From Halichondria panicea (taxonomy: Eukaryota > Porifera > Demospongiae > Suberitida > Halichondriidae), in NCBI RefSeq assembly GCF_963675165.1, contig NC_087384.1, positions 607,001 through 671,000 on the forward strand: 64,000 bases of DNA, written 5' to 3'. Position numbers and translations under genes: made by a program. The first letter of the stretch is position 1, and every line of letters begins with the position of its first letter. A model generated the notes under the pieces. That model was not told the origin of the DNA, made no database searches, and saw only the letters and a list, made by a program, of their open reading frames with translations. This document shows, in pieces, positions 2,764 to 36,429 of this stretch.

Positions 2764-4048
2764 CTAGCGATACACAACTCTTGGCTGTGCTGCAGGTATA
2801 TTGATGACAGTCACAGTATTGTTTGTCTGCTGCTGGCAAATGGGTTGAGGGGGGCGATAATACTGCTGTGGAGGGGGGCGGTAATATTGCTGTGGAGGGG
2901 GCGGTCTCTGGGGGTAGCTCTGGTACGCTGCCCTCGGAGGGTAGTTCTGAGGTCTGGGGGGCGGCTGTCGATACTGCGGTCCAGGGGGTCGATTGTATTG
3001 CGGCCTTGGGGGTTGGTTGTATTGAGGCCTTGGAGGTTGGTTGTATTGCGGCCTCGGAGGCTGTTGCTGTGGCCTCGGAGGAGGTGGTCTAGTTTGATAG
3101 CTGTATGCACCTTGATAGCCAGGTCCACCCGACGGTGGAGGTGGGGTGTATCCGATAGGCATAGTACCACCGTAGCGAGCAGGATCAGGCATTGGGGGGC
3201 CGGATTGCGCAGGAGGTGGGCTGGTATACTGTTGAGCATGGGGATTCGTACTTGGCACTGCGTTCGGTGGTGGACCATTTTGTGTAGGGCCAGTATATTG
3301 AGGGGGAGCATTGGCATAGTGACTAGGATCAGGCATCGTAGGAGCAGTTGGAGCATTACCTTGAGGGGGGGTGTTTGTACACGACGGTGGCTGGCCATTA
3401 GGAGGGATAAATTCACTCGATTCCAGAGGTGGCTGCTTGTGTTCGGGAGAGGTAGGCGTGTAGAAGGGGGGAGGGGAAGTGAGTTTATCCTCGAGTTTGA
3501 CTTGAGCTTCTTCTCCGTACGTTGCCGGGGGATACTTTTTCTCGTTTGTACCAGCTCTCGCTGTTTCGATAGCGCCTATCCATGCCCTGGAGAGATGAGA
3601 TGTAAACATAGATGGTGTAATGAACAGTTCACACCTGATTAACCCCAGAAGGCTTTGTATATGCAAACAACCAGGACAACCATAACAAGTTAGGTATCTT
3701 ATTAGTCACAAAATCCCAAAAATAACAAAAATAAATCCTAAATTTGGTCTATCAATGACTCGGCAATTTCAGGCCTTTCAGGTGATGCTCACATTTCACA
3801 TAAATGATCAGCTATAATAGTAAGCATATGTTAGTTTGTGTGTGATAGGCTTCTGCTAGTCTACAGTCTGAACAGGGATGTGCCCACACTGGTCGGTGGT
3901 GGTTGGCAACAACAACATCACTGCCTCTTTGACCTAGCTTACCACATAATATAATGGGAATAGGCTATAAAACTGTGATTGGAAATAGCCACCATTTCAA
4001 ATATTCTGGGCACATCACTGCAGTCAGTCCTGTAACTACCCTCCTCAC

Positions 4049-8930: not shown

Positions 8931-9200
8931 ATGGAGGATGCTTTTCGTAAGACAGTTGTGAACATTTCCCATGCTCTGAGTAGCTATGACTTGGAGCAGA
9001 TCGTTTATCTCTTTGCCATCCCTGAACAAGACGGAAAAAACACTCCACTCTCAGTATTGAAGAGGCTTGAAAGAGACGGCAAATTCTCTGCTACTAAGCC
9101 AGAGGGGCTGGACAAGCTGCTTCAAGATATTCATCGCAGTGACCTTAGTGGTCGAATAAGTGACTATTGTAGTCGATTCAGACATTGTAGAAGTTGTTAG
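8931..9200 (+). pseudogene. Truncated DED gene, left copy of the duplication (DED locus A)
   Basis: ATG at 8931 opens an 89-codon frame nearly identical to the start of the next gene. It holds the whole DED, including VLKRLERDGKFSATKPEGL and the closing IHRSDLSG with the RxDL motif. Coding similarity stops after SRFRHC, where the frame runs into duplicated PITP intron sequence and a TAG. The helical middle and tyrosine tail of its sister are absent. It may be dead, or may produce a DED-only decoy of the kind known for viral and cellular FLIP proteins; the sequence cannot decide. Its upstream sequence is like that of the intact gene, so it could be transcribed. Confidence 0.75.
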
Positions 9201-9347
9201 TACACAAGCTAAGAAAAAATCATATTTATGGCAAGTTTAGGGTAATAGCAATTATTGGCTTTTGTTTTGTGGACCTGGATAGATAATAATTGAAGCATTC
9301 ATTTTCTGATGTGTTACTGAGTGCATGTGTGTTTCTCTCGTGTGTAG

Positions 9348-9389
9348 GCTCGTACTGAAGGTGAGGTCAGGGGGACCAGTGAACAATAA
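9348..9389 (+). pseudogene. Duplicate of PITP terminal exon
   Basis: The acceptor tgtgtag and the 14-codon terminal exon of PITP are repeated, with one silent change (ACT to ACC), because of the tandem duplication. It could serve as an alternative last exon giving the same protein with a different 3' end, or be inert. Confidence 0.8.
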
Positions 9390-9946
9390 CTATGATTGGA
9401 TTCAATCAGTAGCTATTTAAATATACTGTACCTTTTAAAACAATTCTTGTTCAATGTTTTGCTTGTTGATAACTAACTACGACATGTTATTATTATTATT
9501 TAAATATTATGCTTGTGCAATGTTTCCTGATGAACAGGTTTAGTTTTCTTTGAAATGTGAACACATGGACGTAATGCACTTATAATAATTATATAAGAGT
9601 AGTAAATGATATGCATGACTGTACATGTATTATAATTATGGCTTTAATTGTCTCAGTATTTGACTTGATGTGCATGGTTGAGGACTACGATTGTTAGTGG
9701 AAATGACTAAAATGGAAGTTAAAGTACGTATGTTACGTGAGTGTGCGTGCGGGGAGTGTGTTAGCCTAAAAAAGTAAGGAATTTGGCAGCCATTGTGATG
9801 TTGCATAATGCCCTATTATAGGTAGTCCATAAAGCATTTTCATTTATAACAGACCATACAACACTGCACTGCTGAAACAAACAGTTATAGATATAATTAG
9901 AAAGTCAACAAAGTTGTATTACAGTGTTAGTATTGTTTTAGTTGCC

Positions 9947-12189
9947 ATGGAGGTAGCTTTTCGTATTACAGTTGTGAACATCTCCCATGCTCTGAGTAGC
10001 TCTGACTTGGAGAAGATCGTTTATCTCTTTGCCATCCCTGAACAAGACGGAAAAAACACTTCACTCTCAGTATTGAAGAGGCTTGAAAGAGACGGCAAAT
10101 TCTCTGCTACTAAGCCAGAGGGGCTGGACAAGTTGCTTCAAGATATTCATCGCAGCGACCTCAGTGGTCAAGTAAGTGATTATTGTAGTCGATTCAGACA
10201 TTGTAAAAGTTATTGTTGCGGCTTGAGTCAATGTCGGCGTGTTGTTGAGCTAACGGAACTGTGTGTACAAGAGGCTGATAACACTAGGAAAAGAATATTA
10301 GATCTTCAGCAAAAGTTGGAGAAGTTCTCAGAAAATCAGCGAAACACGCCCTCCACAGATAAGTTTTATAGAGAAATGGGAGATCACTTTAGAGTGGTTC
10401 AAAGCGACTTTAACAAGTTCCTAATTTCACCACTTCAAGACTTGCAACAGTTGGTGGGATTGTCGGACAACATCGCAGGCTCTGTAGGAAAAGAAGGTTA
10501 GTTATCAGAAGCTCCGGATTATTTACATGCATGATCTCATACAATACAAGATGCATGCTCATAGAGCATTCACCCCGTGCGTTGAGCAGCGGCAAAACAG
10601 ATACAATAACTTTTAGCGTAATGACCTTATTACAAAATGTTCATTATGGAGAATGATCGTGAATCTATAAAGCAACGATTAGATTGATTATTTTTGCCTT
10701 CAAAGATCACCTACAAGTTTTAAGTATAACTAATTTTTCTTAGTAGGTAAAGCAGTCCATGAAATTTAGTGTTTAGTTCGATCAAACAGCTCATTTTGTG
10801 TCCACGCACACACCAATCACTCTATCACTCTATCCCTCCTGCGCACGCACGGGGTAAATATTATAATACTTAGTAAGTATAATAGTGTGTGCAGAACTCT
10901 GTTGTCGTACTGCTTCGTCAGCATAATTATAGAGCATAGATTTAATGATTATAGTGAAAGCTATACCAGCATGTGTATATTCATGCACCCACAACCCACA
11001 ACAAGATATATAGTGTGTGTAGAGCTATATACCTTGTTTAGTATAATTATACAGCGAGCATTACTAAAGCTGCCAGCTAGCATGTTTGTTTACCCACAAC
11101 AAAGGCACACCTATACAGTAAACAGCACAAACACCATTAATAGCGTTGCTTATCTAATTCCCTAACTATACACAAACAATTAGGAGACGAGCCAACTACA
11201 GCTGGAGTAAACCCCTCTACCAAATCCACCATCACTGTTAAACCCACCTCGAGCCAATGGGAGGCGGGGCAAACGGAAGATTATGACATTTTGGAGCCGA
11301 TTGGTTCACAGGACAACTTTGGAGGGAAATCACTCGCCACTCGAATACCAATTCCAACTAGAGCAACTAAAGTATCATCTGGTGAGAGAAAAAGCATAAT
11401 TTAAATAACACAATTTTAGAGCACAGCTGTGTTAAGTGTTAAGTCCATTTTTAGCTAATTACCCATTACTTAATCCAAAACAGTGGCATGCTTTGTGCGC
11501 TTTATCCACGAGTTGATAATGAGACTTGCTATACATGTCTAGTTTATAATGAACATGGACTTATCCATCTCCTGACAATAATCACTATCACCATAATTAT
11601 CATATCTATACCATCACCATTGCCCTCAGGTCACAGCTCTCCCAGTAGCAGTCCAGTGCAGCTCAGACATAGGACGCCGTTGAGTAGTCCCCAGAGGGGG
11701 CGTAGCAGAGACTACGAGTCAGGGGGTAGTCCCCAAAGGGGGCGTAGCAGAGATTCCTCTTCCCTCACCAGCTCAACTGATGACAGTGGATTTGCTGAGT
11801 TGAAATTACTTCACGGTCGTTATAGCGCAGGCAAGTGACTTGACTATGTGGCACACCTGCAATGAGGTTGTGTATATACTCAGTGACTGTATAATTATAG
11901 ATCCAGGAAACATGCAGAGTACAATATATACAATTATACAATGCATGTATAATGACTTTGAAGTACGTTTCCATTATGCCCTACAGGTAGTCGCCCTCGT
12001 AATGACAGCCTCCGCCACACTTGGAGAGAGTCTCGGGAGTACACCTCCCTGGACCTAGCCACTTGCATCAATCGTAAGTCACACCACACACAGAGTATAA
12101 TCATGTAGTGGTGTTCATCTCGTAATTTCTTACCCACTGCAGAAAGTTCAGACTACATGAACATTCATTCAAAAACTCCAAAAAAATGA
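9947..12189 (+). CDS. DED protein with tyrosine-motif tail (DED locus B)
   Basis: Exons 9947-10496, 11184-11381, 11630-11830, 11987-12073 and 12143-12189, about 361 residues, all joined in phase 1. Residues 1-80 are a death effector domain: ISHALSSSDLEKIVYLF, then VLKRLERDGKFSATKPEGL, then IHRSDLSG, whose R-S-D-L is the conserved DED charge motif. Residues 100-180 are helical, probably coiled coil, with LQDLQQLVGLSDNI. The rest is disordered and carries EDYDILEP, a duplicated SSPQRGRSRD segment, REYTSLDLA and the C-terminal DYMNIHSKTPKK. YTSL and YMNI are plausible SH2-docking sites (YxN fits GRB2-type SH2). Intron 3 starts with GC (gcaagt), a rare but functional donor. The product is inferred to be a cytosolic adaptor; partners are unknown. 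Confidence 0.8.
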
Positions 12190-12568
12190 CGAACAGTTTT
12201 CTTATTCATTCCATACCGTACCAGCACACTCCCTGTTTGTTTGTCTGTCTCACATATTTGGTAAACAACATTCCCTTATAAATTATGTCATATGAAAGCA
12301 ATTTTAATGAGCTCAGACTTATTAGCTGAGGTCCTAGTGCGTTGCCAAATAATTACCTGACATAGCTTGGCAATTGCAGTTGGGATGGCTATGCAAAACG
12401 TACGCCTTCTTCTCACTGCAGCGTGCCATCAAATGCATGCCAACAAAGTTAATGGAAGCGGAAATTCTCAGAAAGAAATTCCTCCCGTATTTTCTCTGCA
12501 CAAAGAACTAGATCTAGCTGCACATGCGCAATAGACAGTAGCTGTAGAATAGAAGAAACAGAGAAAAG

Positions 12569-15498
12569 ATGGATGTATCTCCCGAGTCTAATGCAAGGTT
12601 CATAGCATTCAGACAGCTGGTGTTCCGTTGCTCTGAGCAGCTCAGTAGCAACGAACTGCATGCCCTGGTCTACGTATGGCTGTACTCTGAGAAAGAGAGC
12701 TACAAAGATGCCTCAGGGATCAGTATTTTCTCAAAACTCGAGGCTACTGGAAAGTTTAGTCCATGGAATCCAGAGGGCCTCCTTGAAATGCTGAAAGAAA
12801 TTAAGCGGAATGATCTCTGCAGTGAAGTCAAAGATTTTATGAAAATAAAGTGGCCGAAAGTAGTAAAAAAAGGAACAAAAAATGTGGTGTGTACGACTGA
12901 TGAAGATCTCCAAGCGACGTTCGAAGTGGTGGTATCCCAGGCAACAGTGCTGATGCAACAAATTGAGGCGTTTGAGATAGTTCTTTTACAGGAGAAAGAC
13001 GCAAGAGAGAAAGCAAGGAAGGTCATCACAGAAGCAGCACAGACGGCAAAGACACTGTCTGACAGATTGCTAAGAGCTCAGAGTGAGCTATATGACGCCA
13101 ACAATACTGATCACGACCAGTATGTGGACCTGGACAACTACAGACCCCAGAGACGTAAGGAGTGTAAGGCAGTGTATATACTTTGGCTCAATTTGTTTTG
13201 ACCATTACAATTATTCTGCATGTAAAGGTGATGTCTACATATCAGTGCTTGCCAAGAGACTAGTGGGCCAGCAATATTCCATTCACATATATAATAGGCT
13301 GACAATACCCTTAGGCTGTGGCTGTTGGCACTCAAACCATCATTGAGTGTATGAGTTATATGCACAACTGTATATGCATTACCAATACCATATACACATG
13401 CACAGTTGTGTTTATAGTGTCTTCTAATCCAATCTCCCATGATCACAGCAAGGAACAAGTTTAATCAACTTTTAATGGTTTACAGTTTCATTTTGGAATA
13501 CATATTGTAACAAACTAATGACAGAAGTTTTCCCAAATGTTTATTAGAGCTAGTATAGAAAGCTGCTGATTTTACTAGATTGACAAACACTAACAAACAA
13601 TCCTTTGTTTACAATTCCTTGTTTGGAGCTGTTATCTTAAAGACAAGTTATATAGAAGCCTATAGATACTTGTTTACTGTTGTATAAAGTGAGTTTGATA
13701 TGATAATCATTATTCCCACTGCAGCCAGAGCGTCATCCCTTACTGCGAGTGTCAGCCAACAATGTCTCCCCACCCCCCCCACCAGCCTCACACCAACACA
13801 CACCACCTTCACACGAATCACACCCTCCCAAACCACCCCCATTGATGCAGATATGGGCGAGTACATCGATATGTCAAGTTTGAAGCTCGGAAAGAATAAA
13901 AAAAATAATGGAGTCTTGCCTACCAATACAAACTTAGCAAGTTTAGCTAACTGCTATAGCGATTCGGCAACCTCAAAGAAAGGCATGACTACAGTAGGAT
14001 TGTCCACTGCAGTGGCAACAGTATCCCCCTCATCTAAAGCCCCCACCCACTCAGCTACTCCTTGCAATGAGTACAGTGTTCCCACCAGCAGCGCAGGGAG
14101 CTCAAGGTACAACTCAAGGCATAACTCAATCGATGCAAACATGTATCTCAGTCCCTTAATGCAAGAAGAAGGAGCACTCTACTGCAACTTAGAGGAGATA
14201 CAAGCAGCGGTGATGACAGCACCCCCCTCGTCTAAAGCCCCCACCCACTCAGCTATCCCCTGCAATGAGTACAGTGTTCCTACCAGCAGCGCAGGGAGCT
14301 CAAGGAATAACTCATTCGATGCAGACATGCATCTTAGTCCCTTAATGCAAGAAGAAGAAGGAGCACTTTACTGCAACTTAGAGGAAATGCAAGCGAAGCT
14401 CCTACAAAAATTATCGAAACAAAGCTTTGACAGTACTCAGAACAGTGACCCTGCAATGCCCCCTGCTAATATCAATGGCCTACCCCCTCGAGACATTCAA
14501 CGTTCTAAACTCCACACCTCTATGTCACTCCCCGTAACCACAGAAAGAAGCCCCCCAGGGAAAATAAACTCACTGAGTAGCGTGGAAGAAGTACCACCCT
14601 CAAGCAGTAATGATTCTGGCGATGCACTAAGCCAGAAAGATAGTGATCATGCACCCAGTGTGGTGGGGAACAAACCAAGCATTGCCCCCAAGCCTCGTAT
14701 CAAACCGAAACCAGGTAAGTTTATGTATAAATGCAATTATGATAATTATGCATGGTGTATACATGTGTATAAAATACCCAGCATTATATTTTTGAACGGC
14801 CATTTTGTTAATTGGTCCAATAACTTATGAAAGCTTACAATGAGCTCAATATCTGAAAATCAAAGGGCCTGCTTTTGAAATAGCTTGGTCTTTTCAAAAT
14901 TGGTGAACTTACACCAGAACTCTAGTTATAGAGCCGACTCTTACCCTCGCTAATATTGACGTCATTCACATGTTGTATTGACTCTACAGCTAAATGTTCT
15001 AACTGTATTCCTTATATAGACATGCAACCCAGACGGTCATCAGTGGGTCACATGACCCACATGCGAGTGCGGTCAAGGCTAGTGTCCAAATCCGTCAGGT
15101 GTACGTCTGTACTCGGTTGTGCGAAGAACCCAGTGCTAGCCAATCAGGAAACACCTGTCATGCCATGTGATGAGGAAGGTGAAAGAGAGCTTGAAACTGG
15201 AGGTGGGTTGGTTATTGCAATAAACATCGAATGATCATCTATTTTGCAGAATTTCATTACTACACTCACCTACAAGCACCAGAACAAAAAAGTAAGTGGA
15301 AATACAAGCTATTTTACAAGTCCTGTGGAAAGCACACTTGCAATATTAGCCTAAAATCCATGGCAGGCCTTTGTAATTCGAGGCTATTGCAATAATTATG
15401 CCAGACAACACAGGTACTTAACTGATTTCACTACTGGTTTTTCCCATAACTACACAGATGACTCTGACAGGATGTATGCAGTTGTACGTCATCATTGA
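12569..15498 (+). CDS. DED protein with long tyrosine-motif tail and internal duplication (DED locus C)
   Basis: Exons 12569-13154, 13725-14714, 14990-15202, 15250-15291 and 15458-15498, about 624 residues. The DED (about 12-95) has LVFRCSEQLSSNELHALVY, KLEATGKFSPWNPEGLLEML and IKRNDLCS (RxDL). Residues 110-185 look coiled coil (ATVLMQQIEAFEIVLLQEKD). The 330-codon exon 2 is Ser/Thr/Pro-rich, holds GEYIDMSSLK, and contains a direct duplication of about 65 residues, each copy including NEYSVPTSSAGSSR and GALYCNLEE. Further tyrosine sites are PYIDM (YxxM, PI3K-type), YYTHL and the C-terminal MYAVVRHH; IAPKPRIKPKPG is a likely SH3 ligand. Exon 3 could begin at 14990 or at a second in-frame acceptor near 15019; the first has the better pyrimidine tract and keeps YIDM. 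Confidence 0.78.
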
Positions 15499-15733
15499 GC
15501 ACACCCTACATACTGAAACTGTATTCATTAACCACATTAATAATTTATTGGTCGCCATAAATATGTTAGCTTAACAGTCTATGATTTCCTGGGGAATTTT
15601 TTTTATAATCACAAGTGAGCAAATATGGAGTGATCATTGAATTCATATGTTATCAGTGGTTTTATGACGTCAATTTATGCCACAACTTGCAGTAGTTTCT
15701 TTATCTGATTAGTGAAAGTTAGTTGTCTTAGCC

Positions 15734-16966
15734 ATGGCTACAAGAATACCTTCTAGAAAGCTTAAAGTAGACTTTGGTTGGTTGCTAGATAGGGTAACTG
15801 AAGGGTTAGATATATCAGAATGCCAAAGAATAGCTAGGGCAGAAGATCTCCCAAAGTCTAAGATCTCAGACAGCGAAGAGTTTCGTATAAATCTTCTCAG
15901 CCTTTTGCGAGAGAGAAGAAGATTTGGCCCATTGGAACTTGATGGTCTAATTGAGATACTACTTAACATTAAACGGGAGAATTTGATCGATGAAGTGGAG
16001 CAGTACAAAAGTGAGCAACGCTATAAAGAGGAACGGGAGCAATACAAGATTCAGAAAGGGAAATCGTATAGGCCTCAATCTGAGGAAATTGAAGAGATTG
16101 GTCACCAAATCGCTACAATAAGGTCTAAAATGCTCTTAATGCTGAAAGCAGTTCTAGAAGCAGAAGAAAATTTTGAAAAGTACAAAACAGGTGAAAAGAC
16201 AATCGAGGAAGTGAGAAAATCTCTTGATAAATGCTTAGAGAGACGCGCTATGAAATCTACCTGGTCCGATTCTAGCATTTGCTCTAGTACTGGCACACAT
16301 TCTCCCATAGAAGAAGGTGCGGTCCCCCTATCTGTTTTTAAGTAGCTGCATGTTTAATGTAGGAATTCTTTAATTTCAGATCATTACTCTGTGCTACCTG
16401 GACCAACAGAGGAGACAGAACGTGACAAAGCACAGCTCCCCCCAGACACTACACCCCCAAATCCTATTAAGAGTCACAAGCAACCTTTAAAGCCTGTACG
16501 CTACAAGCGTAGACCTATTTCGATAGCACAGGGAATAGAAAGCACACCAATCCCCCCACATCAGGCCGAGCCCTTAGGCAATACAGATAGCGATCTTACA
16601 GGTGGCACAGGAGACAGTGGGATGGGGACTGGAGAGTCGTCGGACAGGAATACATGGATTGAGAACTCCGCAGAGAAAATAGGTAACATGTAATGAACAG
16701 TACTATAGCTATCTTTCAAACCAAACAAATTTATAGCACAAGAGTTGAAGACATCATCACCAAGACCACCTGCAGTGAAACCAAGACCACCAAAGAAAGG
16801 TCAATACACACCTTTAATAGGCAGAAATGAGCCGCAAGGAGGCTATACCAAACTGATAAAAGCGGACAGTCTGGATGGTAAGTAACCCGGACTATAATTA
16901 TCTTTTATCGTTCTCTTTTTCACAGGTTTGATGTCGGAGCTAAAAAAGAGACAAGACAATTTATAG
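15734..16966 (+). CDS. DED-like protein with YxxL tail (DED locus D)
   Basis: Exons 15734-16316, 16380-16682, 16737-16877 and 16926-16966, about 356 residues. It is the most diverged member: residues 10-95 fit the DED pattern (FGWLLDRVTEGLDISECQRI, LLRERRRFGPLELDGLIEIL, then IKRENLIDEV in place of the usual RxDL). A highly charged helical segment follows, with EEIGHQIATIRSKMLLMLKA. The tail is proline-rich and holds HYSVLPG, QYTPLIG, GYTKLIK (YxxL class) and SSPRPPAVKPRPPKK, a strong SH3-ligand type. All introns are phase 1, as in its neighbours, supporting common descent. It ends with KKRQDNL rather than a C-terminal tyrosine motif. Confidence 0.72.
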
Positions 16967-17443
16967 TACATTGTGTTTGCACGGTTATATACAATGCACA
17001 AGAAAATGTTGTAACTATTGTCAGTGTAACATTATTATTAAGCAGTCACGAGTCAGTTGCATTAAACTAACATCAGAGAATATGCATAGTTAACAAAATT
17101 AGTAACACTATAAACACTGATTGTTCACGCACAATGCTTGTTTACACACGTAACTATGGATATACCAGAGCCATTTAAATGACCACACATGCATGCAAGT
17201 ATAATAGCTTTATATTGGCAGCATTCTACCTCTTTCCATTACGTTTGTACACACATATATATAAATTATATATATAATTATATAGTTGTTACTGTACACT
17301 ATCAATGAAATGTCAATTTATTCAAACCGCTGTAAGCAAAATAATACATGTACATGCACATAATTGTGCATCTTCAGATATTGCAATAATAATATTGTAG
17401 TTTTTGTGTATGTGGATTGCACGCAACTTAAGTGTTAGCACTG
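16967..17443. other. Intergenic, no gene seen
   Basis: The 477 bp between two convergent DED genes (D plus, E minus) are AT-rich, with short AT repeats near 17260-17285. No exon or element end was recognised; both 3' untranslated regions must fall here. Confidence 0.5.
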
Positions 17444-18856
17444 TCATGGTCTCCTTACAACGTCAGTGTACAGAGAGTCCTCATCTTCAGCTACTTGCTG
17501 CTTTAACAATGCCATGTATCTGCTCTCTTGTGGTTTGGTGATATACATAGGGTTTTCCATCATATCATCGTTTTCCAGCCCTGAGGGCAAAAATCCAGTA
17601 TACATTCAAAATAAAGTCATTATTCTATACACAATGAATAGTGGTAGTGCATGTGCTAACTGCTATTATGTGTCAGACAATGTAATGGTGACACCTGCAT
17701 GCATGTGCTATAAGTATAGTAGAGCTTAGTCTACGAGCTCAATAAGACACCGTGTGCTAAACCATGCATGCACTAAGTATAGTTGGCTAAGTGATATGTC
17801 TCACCTTGTGGCTGGGGGTTTCCAGGAAGCCATTCCCTCAGCTTTCCCTCTCCACTTCCAATCCCGCTGTCTGTGTGTCTCACCATTCCAACAGTTGTTC
17901 TCGTCCAATTGACAACTTCAACATAGCTTTTCTCGTCCAATTCAGTCTGATCGACAGCTTCATAATAATTCACCTCTTCTACTCCATTGGATGATTCAAC
18001 GACATTATCGTATGCAGGTTGCTCGCTTTCATACGAGGGGTCGACAGCATTGTCATAGAAACCCTCCTCCTCTTGTAAAAACATGTGTGCCTTGCAGGAA
18101 GAGTCTAAAAGGGGGCGGTTTCTGATGGGAATTTGGTCGTACGTATCATATGCCTGACCCAAGGTAGGCATAGGAACAATATCATCGTACTGTTCTCCAT
18201 CATCTTGTCTGTGACCCAAGGTTGACATAGGAACAATCTCATCGTATTGTTCTCCATCGTCTTGTCTGTGACTCAAGGTTGACATAGGAATAATCTCATC
18301 GTACTGTTCTCCATCGTCTTGTCTGTGACTCAAGGTTGGCATAGGAACAATCTCATCGTATTGTTCTCCATCGTCTTGTCTGTGACCAAAGGTTGGCATA
18401 AGAACAATCTCATCGTACTGTTCTCCATTGTCTTGTCTGTGACCCAAGGTTGGCATAGGAACAATCTCATCGTATTGTTCTCCATCGTCTTGTCTGTGAC
18501 TCAAGGTTGACATAGGAATAATCTCATCGTACTGTTCTCCATCGTCTTGTCTGTGACTCAAGGTTGGCATAGGAACAATCTCATCGTATTGTTCTCCATC
18601 GTCTTGTCTGTGACCAAAGGTTGGCATAAGAACAATCTCATCGTATTGTTCTCCATCGTCTTGTCTGTGACCAAAGGTTGGCATAAGAACAATCTCATCG
18701 TACTGTTCTCCATCGTCTTGTCTGTGAATGACAGTAGCTCCAAAACCAACAGACAGGCTCTGTGATAGTGACTTCTTGACTGGTGGTAAGAGTGGCTTCT
18801 TGTCTGTGTGTAGATGTTTATATATAGGTGTGTGTGTGCATGCATGTGCGTGTGTG

Positions 18857-18897
<41 letters not shown>

Positions 18898-19667
18898 ATG
18901 TACACTTACAGGTCCGGAGTTTAGGTTGCATAAGTGTTTCAGCTTTCTTTTTGTTCCCTGCAAATTCATGAGTGTGTAATGGAAATTTGATATACAGCTT
19001 TATACCTTTGTCTCGGCTTGATGTGGAGCTGTGCTGAGTGCTCACATGATCAGGTAATGTAACACCAGCATCAGCAGCTGCCTTTCTCATGGCTTGACAA
19101 ACGGATACCACAGCCTGCTCATCTTTGGACAACATGAATATGGCCTTCTTGACTTGAGGGATGACTGCTGCTAGCTTATCTCTGGGTACTTGTTGTTGCA
19201 TAAGCTCACGAAGGACGGTCATCAAGTTACTGGCATGGGTCATAGCCAGGGCAAACATATCCTCAAGGTTGTCTTGAGGATTCTCTATTGTTACTGACTG
19301 TATTGGCTGTTTAACTGCTGCTTTCCCTTCCTCTTTTGACTTTTTTTTTTATTTTCTTTGCGGGTTTTACAAAGAGATGGTTCTGCTTGTACTTATTCAC
19401 CTCCGCTATCAAATTATCTCTGGATAGTCGCTTGAGTAGGCCAGCGAAGCCGTCAGGATTCTTGGGACTGAAGACGCCCTTGGCTTCCAACTTGTGTAAG
19501 AAGTGGACCCTCATGTCCTGTAGTCCAGTGGAGCCTGGGGGCAGCTCCAGGATGAATCCTTCTTCATAGGAGAGTCGTGACATCTCATCCTCCGTCAATT
19601 TCTGGGCTACTTTCATCAGCATGCTCCTGAACTCTTTGGCAAGCTCTGCTGGTGCCACATTTGCCAT
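17444..19667 (-). CDS. DED protein with ten tandem YDEI units (DED locus E; frame interrupted in the linker)
   Basis: Minus-strand exons 19006-19667, 18910-18957, 17805-18803 and 17444-17580, about 615 residues if the frame is continuous. The DED (about 5-95) has LMKVAQKLTEDEMSRLSYEE, HKLEAKGVFSPKNPDGF and LSRDNLIAEV. A second helical domain begins MFALAMTHASNLMTVLREL. Exon 3 encodes ten 19-residue units of the form HRQDDGEQYDEIVPMPTLG, then YDTYDQIP, FYDNAVDP, AYDNVVESS and SYVEVV. The last exon has NPMYITKP, RYMALL and C-terminal DSLYTDVVRRP. YDEI resembles the YEEI ligand preferred by Src-family SH2 domains. The frame is off by one base at the A10 run near 19341-19350, between the two domains: A9 would restore it. 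A homopolymer error, an allele or true decay cannot be told apart here. Paralogues at 20371 and 22956 have the same exon plan. Confidence 0.75.
18157..18726 (-). repeat. In-frame 57-bp tandem repeat, 10 units, encoding YDEI motifs
   Basis: Exactly 570 bp, ten units of 57 bp (19 codons), each carrying QYDEI or QYDDI. Units fall into sub-types (VLMPTFG, VPMPTLS, IPMSTLS, VPMPTLG) that recur in order, so blocks of several units were duplicated together. The paralogues F and G each hold a single equivalent unit (ENYDEIVSMSTLG; NDYSEVVSMTTLG). Confidence 0.95.
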
Positions 19668-19866
19668 GAGTAATGGTAACTTAACTGGATGAAGGAGGTA
19701 GCTGATAATATTTTTTGAGTAAAATAATAGCTGTCTAATAAACTGAGTGGCATAACGAGTGATGGTGTGATGACAATAATTATAACAATATTCATTGCTC
19801 TTATTATATGTATTTGGGCAATGTTCAGCCATTCATGGAAACGCTTACAATGGGCCATTCTTGTAG
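19668..19866 (-). promoter_or_regulatory. Conserved upstream region of DED locus E
   Basis: Read on the minus strand, the ~200 bp before the start codon match the ~220 bp upstream of DED locus G: both contain catgaatggctga, attgcccaaatacatataat, agcaatgaatat and, just before the ATG, tattatcagc/tcacctccttcatccag. The conserved order through non-coding DNA suggests a duplicated promoter and leader that is still maintained, or a recent duplication. Confidence 0.65.
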
Positions 19867-20370
19867 TAAACCTGGCTGTTGCATAATACTTTGAGCTAAA
19901 GCTGATGCATGAGCTAAAGATGCTCATGAATATTTATATCTGTAGTCAATTACAAATAAAGAATAAAGAATGCAATGAATTAAGCATACGTGTGTGTTAT
20001 TGATTCGTAACTAAGGATGTCAATAACAACACAGCTGCAGTACTTTGTTTATGTGATTAGTCAAATTACTTTAGCCATGCTTCATTAATTTTATCTGACC
20101 ACACAGGTATATAGCTTTAAGGACACAATACTGGCAGCACTCCGCTGCTATACTTCACACACTACATGTACATGTAGTTGTACCATCATAGAAATGTCAA
20201 CAATTCAACTATGTCAACAATAAAAACTTGAACGAGCAAATAATAATGAGTGCACTGGTAAAAATGCATAATTATGCTATATATACTTGTAATAAAAACA
20301 TTTGTGCTCAAAAGCATGACTGTGCTGTTATGTTATACATGCATGCAAGCAACTTAAAATGTTAGCACTG

Positions 20371-22373
<2,003 letters not shown>

Positions 22374-22955
22374 ACCAGATACTATACTTTCCCGCAGCTT
22401 TATAGGAGACACGTTTGGTACTAAATTCCTAGCTATGGAGTACAGTTCCTATAGCTAGAGTACAAATTGAGTAACAGAGAATGGTACAGTAAGATCTTCA
22501 GGATTGTACACTCCTCTATCTTGATGGAATAAATATGGTGTGTGGTATGATTTATTGAAATAATCATTGAGGTGTGTATTGTATTCATATCTGTAGGCAT
22601 GGAGGAGGCTTAAATAAATAATTCATAGTTACAGTTGTTTACAATGATTTAGAGCTGTGGGCTATTTGAAATTATCTCACAAGTAGATCTATAGCATTAT
22701 GCAGCAGACATGCAGGTCTACTCTAGCTACAAGAATGGCACATTGTGAACATTTCCATATGAATGGCTGACACATTGCCCAAATACATATAATAGGAGCA
22801 ATGAATATCATTATTATTGCCTTCATCTCTCACTATTCCACAATTAAGATACTAACTCTAGTCTAGGACATCACTCAGCCAGCTATAGAATAATCATCTT
22901 ATCTTACCCTATAAGATATTATCAGTCACCTCCTTCATCCAGTGAACCATTAATC
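22374..22955. promoter_or_regulatory. Divergent region between DED loci F and G
   Basis: 582 bp separate head-to-head DED genes F (minus) and G (plus). The part nearest G (about 22734-22955) is the conserved upstream block shared with locus E. The part nearest F does not resemble it, so F appears to have lost or swapped its original promoter at the inversion point. Confidence 0.55.
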
Positions 22956-24437
22956 ATGGCAAATGTGGCACCAGCAGAGCTTGCCAAAGAGTTTAGGAGC
23001 ATGCTAATGAAAGTTGCCCAGAAATTGACAGAGGATGAGATGTCACAAATGTCCTATGAAGAAGGGTTCACTCTGGAGCTGCCCCCAGGCTCCACTGGAC
23101 TACAGGACATGAGGGTCCACTTCTTACTCAAACTAGAAGCCAAGGGCGTCTTCAGTCCCAAGAATCCTGATGGTTTCGCTGGTGTACTCAAGCGACTATC
23201 CAGAGAAGATTTGATTGTGGAGGTGAATAAGTACAAGCAGAATCATCTACGAGGCAACAAGAAATTGTTTAAGAGTAAATCAAAAGATGTAATGGTGAAA
23301 AAGCCATCGGAAGCAAAGCAGTCAATAACGACGACAGAATATCCTCAAGACAACCTTGAGGATATGTTTGCACTGGCCATGACCCACGCCAGCAACTTGA
23401 TGTCAGTGTTGGAGGAACTTCGTGACCTTATGCAACAACCCATACCCAGAGATAGGCTAGCGGCAGTCACTCCTCAAGTCAAGGAGGCCATTGTCATGCT
23501 GTCCAAAGAGGAACAGACTGTGGTATCTGTCTGTGAGAGCTTAAAGAAAGTCTCCGCCGAGACGAAAACCAGTGTGAATACAAGCAATCAGAGCAGCCCA
23601 AAGCCCCTCAAGGGTGTTCACAGTACATGTAAGTTGAAAGCATTTCACAATAATCAAGTTGTTCAAATACATTTTTCGTTAAATGCAGTTGGCAGAAAAA
23701 AGTCTTCAGAAACTCTGAGCCCTATGTCTATAGTCTGTAAGTCATTATGTGCATGATGTATCTGTGCATGTAAAGGTTTTACCACCATCATAGATAAGAA
23801 GAAAACGACACCCCCCTCACCAACTTCAACAACTGAGCCATTTGCCATAGGTCCAAAATCCCCACTTACCCCTCAAAACCCCGAAAACGATTATAGTGAG
23901 GTTGTTTCTATGACTACACTTGGAGAAGGCTACGGAAACTATGACCAGATCCCAGCTACAAAACATGCCCAGCTTAAGGCTGACGTTATATACGACGTTG
24001 TAGCCAATTATTGTCCAGAAGAAAGCAGTCCAACTACACAGACGGAGGAGGCTAATAAGGATATATCACTTTTAGGTGAGGCAAGCTCTGGTGGTAGCAA
24101 AACCAGTGACAAATTAGCCTCGGAGAGTGGGGGGCCAGAGAAGAAGGATCAGTTGCCAATAACAAAGAAACCATCAGGTGATCAAACACTATCTGTATCT
24201 GTGTATAAAAAAATTATAATGCCTGATTGACTATTTACCCTGATTGACTATTTACTGCACCTTTCAGATCCTACGCCCGTGAAGATGGAGGAGCTGATAA
24301 GTCCTGCTCAGGCAAACAAGAAGAGGCAGCCTTACATGGAACTATTGATCATGGAAGATGAAGAGAAAGATGCTGATGATGCTGATTATACTGACCTAAT
24401 CAAGCTGCCTGAAATAGTATCTAAGACTAATTTGTGA
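22956..24437 (+). CDS. DED protein with tyrosine-motif tail, intact member (DED locus G)
   Basis: Exons 22956-23628, 23689-23736, 23794-24177 and 24268-24437, about 424 residues with no interruption. The DED spans about residues 5-95: LMKVAQKLTEDEMSQMSYEE, LKLEAKGVFSPKNPDGF and LSREDLIVEV (RxDL). A basic linker leads to a helical domain from about 130 to 210: MFALAMTHASNLMSVLEELR, IPRDRLAAVTPQVKEAIVML, EEQTVVSVCESL. The tail has DYSEVVSM, GNYDQIP, IYDVV, PYMELL and DYTDLIK. Exon sizes and phases equal those of E and F, but the gene lies inverted. It shares its upstream sequence with E. As the intact copy, it shows that the linkers of E and F should be read through. Confidence 0.82.
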
Positions 24438-24486
24438 AACTACTATCTTCCATGTATTGTTGTGTGATTGTCAGCACTACATGGGA

Positions 24487-24660
24487 CTGCGCATGCGCTA
24501 GTCTCACGAGACTGCAGGGAAGAGTCAAAGGTGCGGCTACTAAGAGAGAATTGTGCGCATGCGCAGCTTCAGAGTTATAGAAATGATTACGTCAGAGAGT
24601 TTCAGAATTGTGCGCGTGCGCAGCTTTAGAGTTATAGAAATGATTACGTCAGAGAGTTTT
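24487..24660 (+). promoter_or_regulatory. Duplicated NRF1-like plus CRE/ATF-like module upstream of DED locus H
   Basis: A 57-bp segment is directly repeated (about 24546-24602 and 24603-24660). Each copy holds a GC palindrome like the NRF1 site (TGCGCATGCGCA at 24554; TGCGCGTGCGCA at 24611) and a CRE/ATF-type TTACGTCA (24587 and 24644). A third TGCGCATGCGC sits at 24488. The module ends about 100 bp before the start codon at 24762. Factor identity is inferred from the consensus only. Confidence 0.65.
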
Positions 24661-24761
24661 CAGGGAAATATTCCTTAGATCAGATAGCACAAAAAGGAAC
24701 GAGCTAGAGCTAAAATGTAGAACTGAGCACCAGAGCACCAGAGCAAGTAGAGTCTAGAAAC

Positions 24762-26102
24762 ATGGCTTCTGACTACGTGGCTTCGCAAGCGTTCAGGGTG
24801 TTTATGCTCCAAGAGATTTGCCAGCACCTGACTCCCAGCGATGTTGAAAGCCTTCTCTACACAAATCAGCTACCCATGCCAGATCTCACTGAGAGTGGCA
24901 CAAAAGTTATGATGAAGCTGGAAATGCGAGACATGTTCTCAGTATCCAACATAACTCCCTTAGCAGACATGATGAGAAACATACACAGAAATGATTTGGC
25001 TAAGAAGGTAGAAAAGTTTCAGAAGTTGAAAAGTAAAAAAGAACATAAAAAAAAGGAGCATGCAGTGGATGCTCGCATGTTTCAGAAATGCTATATCACA
25101 GCAAGTATACAGACTATTAAATTGCAAACAAAGATCCTTTTGGAGCAGATTGAAGAGCTAAAAAGCACTGCTTCGAAAATGGGCTGTACAGAAGTGGAAA
25201 AAGTTATCAGAGACGCTATCGAAATCATTGAAGTACAGTTCCAGGAGAAGCTTCAACTTGCCTCCAGTAAACTTCCCCAACTGAGACAAGACAGTGTCGA
25301 TTCCCTAGACAGTCCCCCCTCCAGCCTGTCCAGTAGCGAGGGTGTTCTGGACGTGCGGTCTCCAACGGGAACACTCGAGAGAGGACCTAGACCTCGTTCA
25401 GGTGCCGTATCCAAGACAAGGTCATTACCAAGAGGTAAGTATTACGTTACAATATTAAATAGACTGTGATCGTGAAATTATTATTTTTACACAGACTTTA
25501 CTACTGCACCGAAGAAACCCTTGCTACCTCCAAGCATCTCCACGCAAGTACAGGATTTGCAACCAGACGATCACGATTATGAATATGTGACTCCTGGAAG
25601 TTTCTCACCTGTACAAAGCGAGCAGCTCCATTACAGCTCCACAGACATTGCCCCCTCAAGTAGACAAGATGAAAGCAGAGGACATTTAGTCACCGGTCGA
25701 GATAGTCCAGCACAGCCATCAAGACTAAAGCCTACTGTTGCCCCCAAGCCATCAAAACTGCAAAGCTCTACCACCACCTCGACTAGTGACTACACAGGTG
25801 GTAGTGCAGACACCAGCACAGGTGATAGTGGGTTCGTAGACTCCAAGAAGTTCAGGAAGGAACGTCCTCCTCCACATCTATTACCAAGACACAACTACAC
25901 ACCTCTTAAAGCTGAGCAGAGAGACACTGTTGATTGTTATGCAACACCTGAACCTCAAGGTAAACACATAAATTACAATGATTGCGACTATTTGCATTTG
26001 TTTTGGCTTTGAGATGTTTTCATTTCTCACATACATGTAGATGCTGAGTATGATGAAGTGGGCCATGGCAAAGAAGATTTGTATGTGAACATTGCAAGAT
26101 AA
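24762..26102 (+). CDS. DED-like protein with tyrosine-motif tail (DED locus H)
   Basis: Exons 24762-25434, 25495-25959 and 26041-26102, about 400 residues. Residues 8-90 are DED-like: FMLQEICQHLTPSDVESLLY, MMKLEMRDMFSVSNITPLAD and IHRNDLAKKV (RxDL). A lysine-rich linker (KLKSKKEHKKKEH) and a helical segment (SIQTIKLQTKILLEQIEEL) follow. The tail is Ser/Pro-rich with DYEYVTPG, LHYSSTD, VAPKPSKL (SH3-type), NYTPLK, EYDEVGH and a C-terminal DLYVNIAR, a YxN[IV] ending like that of locus F. Three phase-1-joined exons match the cluster's general plan. The gene closes the DED cluster; beyond it lies about 1.9 kb without a clear gene. Confidence 0.78.
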
Positions 26103-33818: not shown

Positions 33819-33914
33819 TCACTTACAATTCTCCAACGTTTGGTTGGATAGTGACATATAACAGTCTTCTGACTCCACGTATCCACCTGCACGTGGGGGA
33901 GGGGGAGGGGTTAG

Positions 33915-33971
<57 letters not shown>

Positions 33972-36246
33972 CATACTTGATTCTTGATTGATCGTGTGCA
34001 CATTAACGACAGCGTATGCTTCTACTGGTGAGTCGTCATCGTCAGAGACGTCATGTTGTGGATCAGCATAGATATCATCATCAATCCTGTTCTTCGTCAA
34101 GAGCGGCATGTACTCTGCACTCTGGGAGGTGTGTAGTCGTGGACGAGGTCCATTGTAGTCGTTATTAACTGTGGGGGAGGATTGTAAATCTATCACCACA
34201 GCGTTCAAGATTATACAATAAATGAAGCATAATTATAGCACTGGCAATATCCTATGTACATGTTGTACATGTATATAATTATAATGTCGGCAATAATCAT
34301 AGGCTAAGGCTTCAACAGTTACACTTATAACCACAGGGCTTTGATTGACTGATGTTAGGTATAAAAGCCAATCAGACCACGTGTGGGAGGAGGGGGAGGA
34401 GTTAAAACAACAACGTACACAACACACACACACACACACAACACACACACACACACATACTTGATTTCTGGTCCTCAGAAACGTCGTGTTGTGGATCAGC
34501 ATAGATATCATCATCAATCCTGTTCTTCGTCAAGAGCGGCATGTACTCTGCACTCTGAGAGGTGGGTAGTCGTGGACAAGGTCCATTGTAGTCGTTATTA
34601 ACTGTGGGGGAGGATTGTAAATCTATCACCACAGCGTTCAAGATCATAGCTACCCTGCCCTGGTATGCAGACTTCCTTTATAAACACAGGGTTATGATGT
34701 TAGCTAAAGCCATACAGTACAGGCCACCATATAATATTATGTTGCCAGCTTTGTTATAATAACTGTCCCGCAAGAAACGCTGTGAGAGTCATACAATAAC
34801 TAAAACACTAAGTAATGTTAGTAATGTTGTTTTAACTAAGCAATCGGTAACTCTCGCTTGTTGACACTAAAGGCGCCTGACTTTAATGACTATCTATAAT
34901 GGCCCTGACTTTAATGGGGCTTCCTTATGAGTAAACTATTCCTCAGGAAATGATTAGGCTTCTTATATGGGATTGCACACAGGATAGTTCAGGCCACCAT
35001 AAACCATATCAAGTTACATTCGATTCCACATCATACTAACATACACCACTGCTCATGCATACATAACACAACTGTTTACATTCCAAGCACTTTGACCCTT
35101 TCTAGTCGGTAGGGACACACACACACACACATCCACACACACACACATCCACCCACACACCCACTCACCGTACGCATCCGTGTCGTTATAACGAGACAGC
35201 TCCAGATCGAGACTCTCCAAATGTCTCGATGCTCCCACGAGGTCAAAACGAGGTTTCAGATGGACGTAGCTGTAATCATCGTCACCACCGCTAGCGTTAT
35301 CATTATCCAATATCTCAGTGTACAATGAATAGGGCACAACTTTCTCAGGAGGAGGGAGACGGGGGAGAGGGCCTAGTCTCCCCTGCTGTATCTTAGTGTT
35401 CTTAGCAGGTAACTTAGTTCTAGGACTGCTTGTAGAAGATGTTTGCTGCGTACTTTTATGATTTTGCTGTTTTTTATTTTCTGTTGATTTATGAGCTCCA
35501 TTACTTGGTGGTTTAATATACCTTGGGTTTTGACTGTATGCTTCCGACAATTCCACATTTTTCTTTCGAACATTAGCGGGTAATCGAGGAGCCACGTTGA
35601 GATAGAGCGATTCACGCTTGCTTTCATTCTTCACAATTTTGCAATCAGGACTAGAAGTTTTCCTTTCCATACCCTTCTTTTTCTTATGAGGACGAGGGCC
35701 TGTATGGAAGTGATGATCTGCGGATGCTGACAAGCCAGCTCTTGCTTTGTTCTGGTCTGCGACAGGATTTGCCAAACTGCTCCGAGGTCGAGGTGGACTG
35801 CTTTTTGCATTAATACTCTTGTCTGTGGGGGCCATTGCAAAACTGCTCCTGGGTCGAGGTGGGATGCTCTTCGGTGGAGGGGGCATCATCGGTGGTATTT
35901 TACGACCTTCTTGAGAATTCTTGCTTATAACTATTACGGTATCATTTATAATCTTCACAGGTGGTGGTGGTCTGAGAGGAGGAGCTGAGACCCTTTTCTC
36001 CACTCTTGGATGGTGAGCTTGCAGTCCATTGTTCTTGTCTTGTTCTGTACTCTTCGCACGAGCTAGTTTTATATTAGGACGAGGTGGTGGTCTGGGGGGA
36101 CTAGGCTTCTTCATGGGAAGTACAGGAGAGTTTGGCTCCGAATGACTTTTGACTTGTTCCAAAGAGAGTTGTTTGAGCCTCTTCTTATGTCTAGGTGGAG
36201 CTATAGGAGCTCTACTGACTGCCATTGACTGGTTTGCACTCTCCAT
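33819..36246 (-). CDS. Proline/tyrosine-rich scaffold-like protein with a duplicated exon
   Basis: Minus-strand exons 35169-36246, 34461-34601, 33977-34168 and 33819-33886, about 492 residues, all joined in phase 1 like the DED genes. No folded domain is recognised. The first 200 residues are rich in SH3-type proline motifs (KKPSPPRPPPRPNIK, PPRPRSSFAMAP, PPRPRSSLANP). The rest carries many tyrosine sites: ESLYLNVAP, YSLYTEIL, DYSYVHLKP, EYMPLL and DIYADP (each twice, in the duplicated exons), AYAVVNV and CYMSLS near the C terminus. This is the composition of an adaptor such as LAT/DOK/GAB tails, and SLYLNV resembles DSLYSNIV of the DED cluster. Localisation and partners are unknown. A 5' leader intron may end just before the ATG (tttgtag). 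Confidence 0.72.
33885..34650. repeat. Tandem duplication containing exons 2 and 3 of the scaffold-like gene
   Basis: About 33890-34210 and 34375-34650 are copies: a cacgtg...gggaggagg run, a (CA)n tract, catacttgat, and an exon beginning GTTAATAACGACTAC-equivalent on the minus strand, nearly identical over ~140 bp including the acceptor. The copies differ at the 3' end of the exon, where exon 3 is longer (adds DDDDSPVEAYAVVNVHTIN). Confidence 0.88.
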
Positions 36247-36429
36247 AATTATCCTACAAACAAACAATTGGACTTGCTTTTAACGCTTTAATTAATACAA
36301 ACTAAAACACAAGTTTGTGGTCAAATTGTGAGCCTCGATTATACCCGCGGTTTCATATCAAGGTTACAACATTAATTACACTCTTCAATAATAATTTTGT
36401 TTATACTTATAAAACATCTGTCTATGTGG

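Follow-up and report, generated by a model that had tools for sequence, protein, structure and literature searches.

Eight adjacent loci in the genome of the sponge Halichondria panicea (131 Mb, 39 contigs) share an N-terminal death effector domain (DED), and all but the first (A) continue through a predicted helical segment into a long tail carrying tyrosine motifs, an arrangement that, judged from sequence, suggests a direct wire from death-fold assembly to tyrosine-kinase signalling. The cluster occupies positions 8931–26102 (from the ATG of A to the last base of the stop codon of H) of the window, that is, of the whole 64-kb stretch of contig C8 that was analysed. The reading that we favour, and to which we would give about an even chance, is a lineage-specific family of docking adaptors with an N-terminal DED, a helical hairpin predicted in H and G, a YxxPhi tail and, in most members, a DSG motif, working in the manner of BCAP or Dof but with a DED. 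An initial annotation of this DNA had already proposed an adaptor family linking death-fold assembly to tyrosine-kinase/SH2 signalling; the DED and the motif enrichment held up, whereas the link to SH2 proteins is only the best reading of them. DED proteins are known as switches of death and inflammation, and docking tails and tails with an immunoreceptor tyrosine-based activation motif (ITAM) as switches of kinases; this duplicated gene family combines the two. Should it function as proposed, both death-fold assembly and SH2 recruitment would become accessible to experiment in a single small system.

The gene models are predictions, built by hand from the DNA alone and then translated by script. 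They comprise one exon in A, five each in B, C, E and F, four in D and G, and three in H, with AG acceptors, GT donors except for a single GC donor in B, and phase 1 introns throughout save for the first intron of E, which, like that of F, is conjectural. In B–H, the DED, the predicted helical segment and the tail follow one another through exons bounded by splice sites. Exon 3 of C could alternatively start at 14990 instead of 15020, and the model of F is one base too short to include its stop codon. The loci and their parts (bit scores refer to the Pfam DED profile, PF01335) are as follows:

A, 8931–9200, plus strand: one exon, 89 amino acids, stop directly after the DED (44.0 bits)
B, 9947–12190, plus strand: exons 9947–10496, 11184–11381, 11630–11830 (GC donor), 11987–12073 and 12143–12190; DED (40.8 bits), helical segment, tail with DSG and a C-terminal YTSL/YMNI pair
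C, 12569–15498, plus strand: exons 12569–13154, 13725–14714, 15020–15202, 15250–15291 and 15458–15498; DED (45.2 bits), helical segment, tail with DSG and a YTHL/YAVV pair
D, 15734–16966, plus strand: exons 15734–16316, 16380–16682, 16737–16877 and 16926–16966; DED (24.2 bits, the lowest of the eight), tail with DSG and a YTPL/YTKL pair
E, 17444–19667, minus strand: DED exon from 19667, tail exons to 17444; DED (32.7 bits), helical segment, tail with a YDEI repeat array, DSG and a YMAL/YTDV pair
Tandem repeat in E, 18155–18727, minus strand: 57-bp unit, 10.1 copies, 93% matches, coding for nine YDEI and one YDDI
F, 20371–22373, minus strand: DED exon from 22373; DED (28.6 bits), linker in which the frame changes, helical segment, then the exons of a tail that contains DSG and a YMAL/YSNI pair
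G, 22956–24437, plus strand: exons 22956–23628, 23689–23736, 23794–24177 and 24268–24437; intact counterpart of E and F; DED (32.8 bits), no DSG, YMEL/YTDL pair 14 residues apart
H, 24762–26102, plus strand: exons 24762–25434, 25495–25959 and 26041–26102; DED (42.9 bits), helical hairpin, tail with DSG and a YDEV/YVNI pair

The N-terminal domain is supported as a DED by profile, by sequence comparison with solved structures and by predicted fold. PF01335 was matched by all eight loci, four of which pass its cut-off of 35.9 bits (A, B, C and H, 40.8–45.2 bits); D, E, F and G stay below it at 24.2–32.8 bits, with E-values of 3.9e-5 to 8.5e-8. The RxDL motif, a hallmark of DEDs, is present in six of the eight, the domains ending in RSDL (A and B, the DED of A being a near-copy of that of B), RNDL (C, H), REDL (F, G), or, with N for D, in RENL (D) and RDNL (E). 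Among solved structures, the closest sequence match is the second DED of c-FLIP, and for the predicted structures of both H and G the matches are solved DEDs, with PEA-15 as the closest fold match of H. The models thus agree with a death fold, and its absence, the outcome that the initial annotation had named as a refutation, did not occur. Eight neighbouring genes with a shared N-terminal DED, as read initially from a sequence pattern and its motif endings, are thereby borne out. NCBIfam gave no match for the four proteins tried. Domain scans covered exon 1 of all eight genes (in E and F up to the frame break), exon 2 of C, exon 4 of E and ten further tail exons; in the exons scanned, neither a second DED nor a Death or caspase domain was found, and there was no match to DBB, TIR or ankyrin either, so that membership in the BCAP/BANK/Dof family fails. 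A match of exon 4 of E to DUF7557 (54.5 bits, cut-off 25) was dismissed as a repeat artefact, since the score is summed over the repeats and no single stretch passes.

Eleven tails were compared, those of B–H and of four relatives elsewhere in the genome (L009, L010, L013 and L020, see below); six of them (B, C, D, F, G and H; 1459 residues, 49 Tyr) form the non-redundant set used for enrichment. Disorder of the main tails was judged from residue make-up, the modelled part being the tail start within exon 1, with a predicted local distance difference test score (pLDDT) below 50. Compared with composition shuffles, the six tails contain 28 Yxx[LIVM] motifs versus 8.3 and 19 Yxx[LI] versus 4.8 (both 0/2000 as high), 34 tyrosines preceded by an acidic residue at position −1 to −3 versus 19.1 (0/2000), and seven YxN versus 2.0 (3/2000). 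The tails had initially been described as arrays of tyrosine motifs including YDEI and YxxM, which stands for Yxx[LIVM] and YxN; Y[DE][DE], however, is enriched only through the repeat array of E (two versus 0.9 without E), of which F carries a single 57-bp unit, and the cluster tails contain a single YxxM, namely YIDM in C.

Overlooked by the initial annotation was an ITAM-like pair of motifs near the C-terminus of B–H. In all six non-redundant tails, the last YxxPhi lies at most 20 residues from the C-terminus, versus 2.4 tails when the motifs are re-placed (3/2000), and all six contain a YxxPhi pair with 6–12 residues between, a relaxed ITAM form (16/2000 in a block shuffle). The last two motifs are spaced by 11, 12, 9, 12, 12, 14 and 7 residues in B–H, respectively. 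Likewise overlooked was the DSG motif, which is present in nine of the eleven tails versus 1.3 in shuffles (absent from G and L009). Extended to DSG.{2,3}[ST], the pattern of the beta-TrCP degron, it is found in eight of eleven tails versus 0.4 (0/2000) and in four of the six non-redundant ones versus 0.3 (1/2000), counts that are not independent across related tails; B has DSG without the second site. Within the tails, the DSG block ranks among the better-conserved stretches, reading TGDSGF in both H and L010 and TGGTGDSG in both D and L020, and the genome contains a match to the beta-TrCP_D profile at C2:261735.

The family also extends beyond the cluster, a further feature that had been missed. 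Among 32 exon matches to the DED profile in the genome, frames of the same make were read at L013 (contig C1), L009 and L010 (C15) and L020 (C8). Exon 1 of L013 is 89% identical to that of H, and a search with the tail exon of H matched only H and L013. In a tree of 27 of the 32 DED matches (leaving aside a split FADD-like pair on C7, two fragments on C9 and C12:4286168), the twelve family members group with L019 (support 83/77), with two label changes (0/500 shuffles as low). A clean single clade of the twelve was not shown, L019, which has a different C-terminus, being nested inside; one change was found in 1% of bootstrap trees. Further loci include L024 and L026, with DED-DED frames followed by caspase frames, the FADD-like L011 with DED and Death exons, and L025 with a triple-DED frame. 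SH2 profiles gave 74 exon matches in the genome, including one locus with SH2 and SH3 exons that is closest to PLC-gamma.

A helical segment is predicted in B–H, as initially described for all genes but A, and the structure models of H and G show it as a two-helix hairpin, at residues 101–139 and 142–179 of H and 132–160 and 165–209 of G; a common origin by sequence, however, was not established. Z-scores against shuffles are high only within subfamilies (E–G 45.4, H–L010 15.4, D–L020 7.9), C is weakly linked to E, G, H and L010 (2.5–3.0), and B to none (at most 1.6), so that one homologous helical domain of all genes is not borne out. A protein search with exon 1 of C does reach H over residues 22–174 (E-value 9.3e-7), a match for which the DED alone may account. 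Structure matches of the G hairpin were mixed helical bundles and pointed to no family.

Several results weigh against the docking-adaptor reading. Pairwise Z-scores did not establish a helical domain common to all members, and the agreement of the tails in DSG is largely due to common descent. The SH3-type proline motifs of the initial annotation are weakly supported (six versus 3.0 in shuffles of the six tails, 153/2000 as high). The strict ITAM form Yxx[LI]x(6-12)Yxx[LI] is present in three of the six tails (B, D and F), which is not significant (288/2000 block shuffles as high), and additionally in E, outside the non-redundant set; the pair is not kept in the members outside the cluster, where the spacing is 28 (L013), 50 (L010), 51 (L009) and 98 (L020) residues. 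Among 246 frames of at least 100 residues from the window and from 10-kb loci (the best 25 of the 246 being listed), the density of YxxPhi per 150 residues in B, C and D (2–3) is unremarkable, and acid-preceded motifs reach four in two non-DED frames (33.8–36.3 kb) as well as in a caspase frame. Because neighbouring non-DED frames reach similar motif counts, tyrosine motifs may be common in the signalling proteins of this genome. Frames are furthermore broken in E, F, L009 and L020, and the tail comparison of L009 with L010 gives a ratio of nonsynonymous to synonymous rates (omega) of 0.97 (interval 0.44–3.01).

The frame breaks, which the initial annotation had not noticed, bear directly on the idea of a cluster in partial or predominant decay, with E, F, L009 and L020 as pseudogenes and A as a fragment. 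Neither E nor F is open from DED to tail: the frame of E shifts in the linker, where ten A follow one another, and so does that of F, which by eye is about 25 nt shorter than G. L020 has an in-frame stop in the linker, and in L009 the frame shifts where the helical segment ends. This leaves B, C, D, G and H as the cluster's undamaged genes with a tail. Linker introns bypassing the breaks of E and F gained no support from their scores: the GT-AG introns used in the models score 7.7 (E, 73 nt) and 8.4 (F, 74 nt) and the top in-frame candidates 11.7 (E, 103 nt) and 8.7 (F, 146 nt), no better than spurious top candidates in the intact genes (G 8.7, H 11.5, C 13.6, D 8.7), and L020 offers a single candidate of 6.1. 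This and the L009–L010 tail omega of 0.97 speak for decay, but the models of B, C, D, G and H read through without a break, the ten-A run makes an assembly error in E possible, and omega and its interval stay below 1 in all three parts of the E–F comparison (the DED, the helical segment and the tail), although they reflect the time since the split and not only the present. In numbers, omega is 0.14–0.34 for the DEDs of E–F, E–G, F–G, H–L013 and D–L020 and 0.19–0.43 for the helical segments (all intervals below 1), 0.43 for the DEDs of A–B with an interval spanning 1 (0.12–1.53), and for the tails 0.49 (0.29–0.81) in E–F and 0.54 (0.32–1.01) in H–L013; D–L020 gives 0.26 (0.19–0.48) for helical segment and tail together at a synonymous divergence (dS) of 2.2, near saturation, and dS is saturated in the E–G and F–G tail comparisons. 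We deem decay of part or most of the cluster unlikely; the individual breaks may go back to assembly error or recent decay, or may serve to make DED-only products.

Such DED-only products would suit regulators of the FLIP or PEA-15 kind, whose DED caps or titrates FADD/caspase assemblies while the tail only tunes this action or sets turnover, with the DED-only A as the extreme case. The top sequence match (c-FLIP) and the top fold match of H (PEA-15), the presence of FADD-like and DED-caspase loci in the genome, and the breaks of E, F and L020, which lie downstream of the DED and could leave DED-only products, are in line with this explanation, which nevertheless leaves the enrichment of YxxPhi, its C-terminal placing and the purifying selection on the E–F tail unexplained; we rate it as the less probable account, though the strongest of the rivals. 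Another reader of the tail is conceivable, too, for example the mu subunit of AP-2, for which YxxPhi is also a sorting motif, with the DED as anchor in a membrane complex. However, acidic residues before Tyr (34 versus 19.1) and enriched YxN suit kinases and SH2 domains better, and no transmembrane helix stood out in the models (no dedicated predictor was run). We consider sorting signals very improbable.

Under the docking-adaptor reading, the DED would join or build assemblies with itself, FADD or DED-caspases, and the hairpin might space or dimerise the protein. Assembly would cluster the tails for phosphorylation by tyrosine kinases and docking of SH2 proteins, and phosphorylation of DSG could lead to removal by beta-TrCP and thus end the signal. 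The copies have spread in tandem and to other contigs, and their tails diverged as motifs were gained or lost and repeats expanded. Phosphorylation, SH2 binding and an immune role are inferred, and a part in allorecognition or immunity is a guess. More tentatively still, and with the chances rather against it, the cluster could represent a DED-ITAM-like adaptor class in which DED assembly itself creates a docking platform dense in phosphotyrosine, with an IkB-like beta-TrCP degron as its timer, i.e. an independent solution for coupling innate assembly domains to SH2 signalling where BCAP, Dof and BANK may be absent.

Some side observations were made along the way. Window positions 33822–36279 (minus strand) contain open frames at 35056–36279 (Pro-rich) and 33822–34232 with tyrosine motifs that include EYMPL, EAYAVV, SLYLNV, SLYTEI and DYSYVHL; neither has a Pfam domain over its cut-off, and the two may be exons of a further docking adaptor next to the DED genes. 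In an intron of F, a (CA/GT)n repeat runs to some 152 copies (21288–21592; the counterpart at the same place in E, 18828–18896, is shorter and impure). A palindromic stretch, also intronic in F (20660–20790; about 20780–20720 recurs inverted at about 20700–20640, by eye), is possibly a small hairpin-type insertion. Among the other DED loci, L012 (2196–2840) and L019 (reverse strand, 3293–3931) have look-alike C-terminal stretches after a long middle (by eye), that of L012 without a Pfam match at an E-value of 0.01. L021 and L022 are close copies with a DED-like half-match, and a downstream frame of L021 has a P-loop and a weak Roc match (E-value 0.0061, below the cut-off), so that L021 may encode a DED protein of NLR- or ROCO-like type. 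An exon of an Ion_trans channel gene lies at 59752–60048 (plus strand, 41.0 bits). At L040, one of five cathepsin-like frames looked at, Ser replaces the catalytic Cys, as in silicateins, which is a slight hint of a demosponge.

In sponges, the portions of reports drawn on here describe many DED proteins in transcriptomes of two haplosclerid species (PMC4704026), seven in Dysidea avara (PMC12909245), and assays of FADD and CASP8 death folds (PMC13012725). A DED protein with a tyrosine-motif tail was not found in the searches made of the open-licence literature; the initial claim of an undescribed family holds to that extent.

The cluster genes resemble PEA-15, c-FLIP, FADD and caspase-8 in their DED, by profile, sequence and fold, but carry a long tyrosine-motif tail instead of a second DED, a Death or a caspase domain. 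IkB, beta-catenin and CDC25A are beta-TrCP substrates with DSG degrons, which eight of eleven tails would resemble by their DSG.{2,3}[ST] pattern, whereas B lacks the second site and G and L009 lack DSG. With the ITAM adaptors FcR gamma, CD3 zeta and DAP12, which are transmembrane proteins, B–H share two YxxPhi 7–14 residues apart near the C-terminus; in the cluster, however, the pair comes after a DED and V frequently stands in for L/I, and the four members elsewhere in the genome have not kept it. In the part of a survey of Amphimedon considered here, Grb2, Crkl, Sos and Shp2 were identified but Dof, BANK and BCAP were not (PMC7260276), and a docking adaptor of another make is therefore plausible in a sponge. 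BCAP, as far as described in the excerpt used, combines TIR domains and proline-rich regions with phosphotyrosine motifs that bind the SH2 domains of p85, GRB2, CRKL and PLC-gamma2 (PMC6937578). If the docking-adaptor reading is right, the cluster genes would follow the plan of BCAP, BANK and Dof, an assembly domain and then tyrosine motifs recruiting SH2 proteins, with a DED in place of TIR/DBB.

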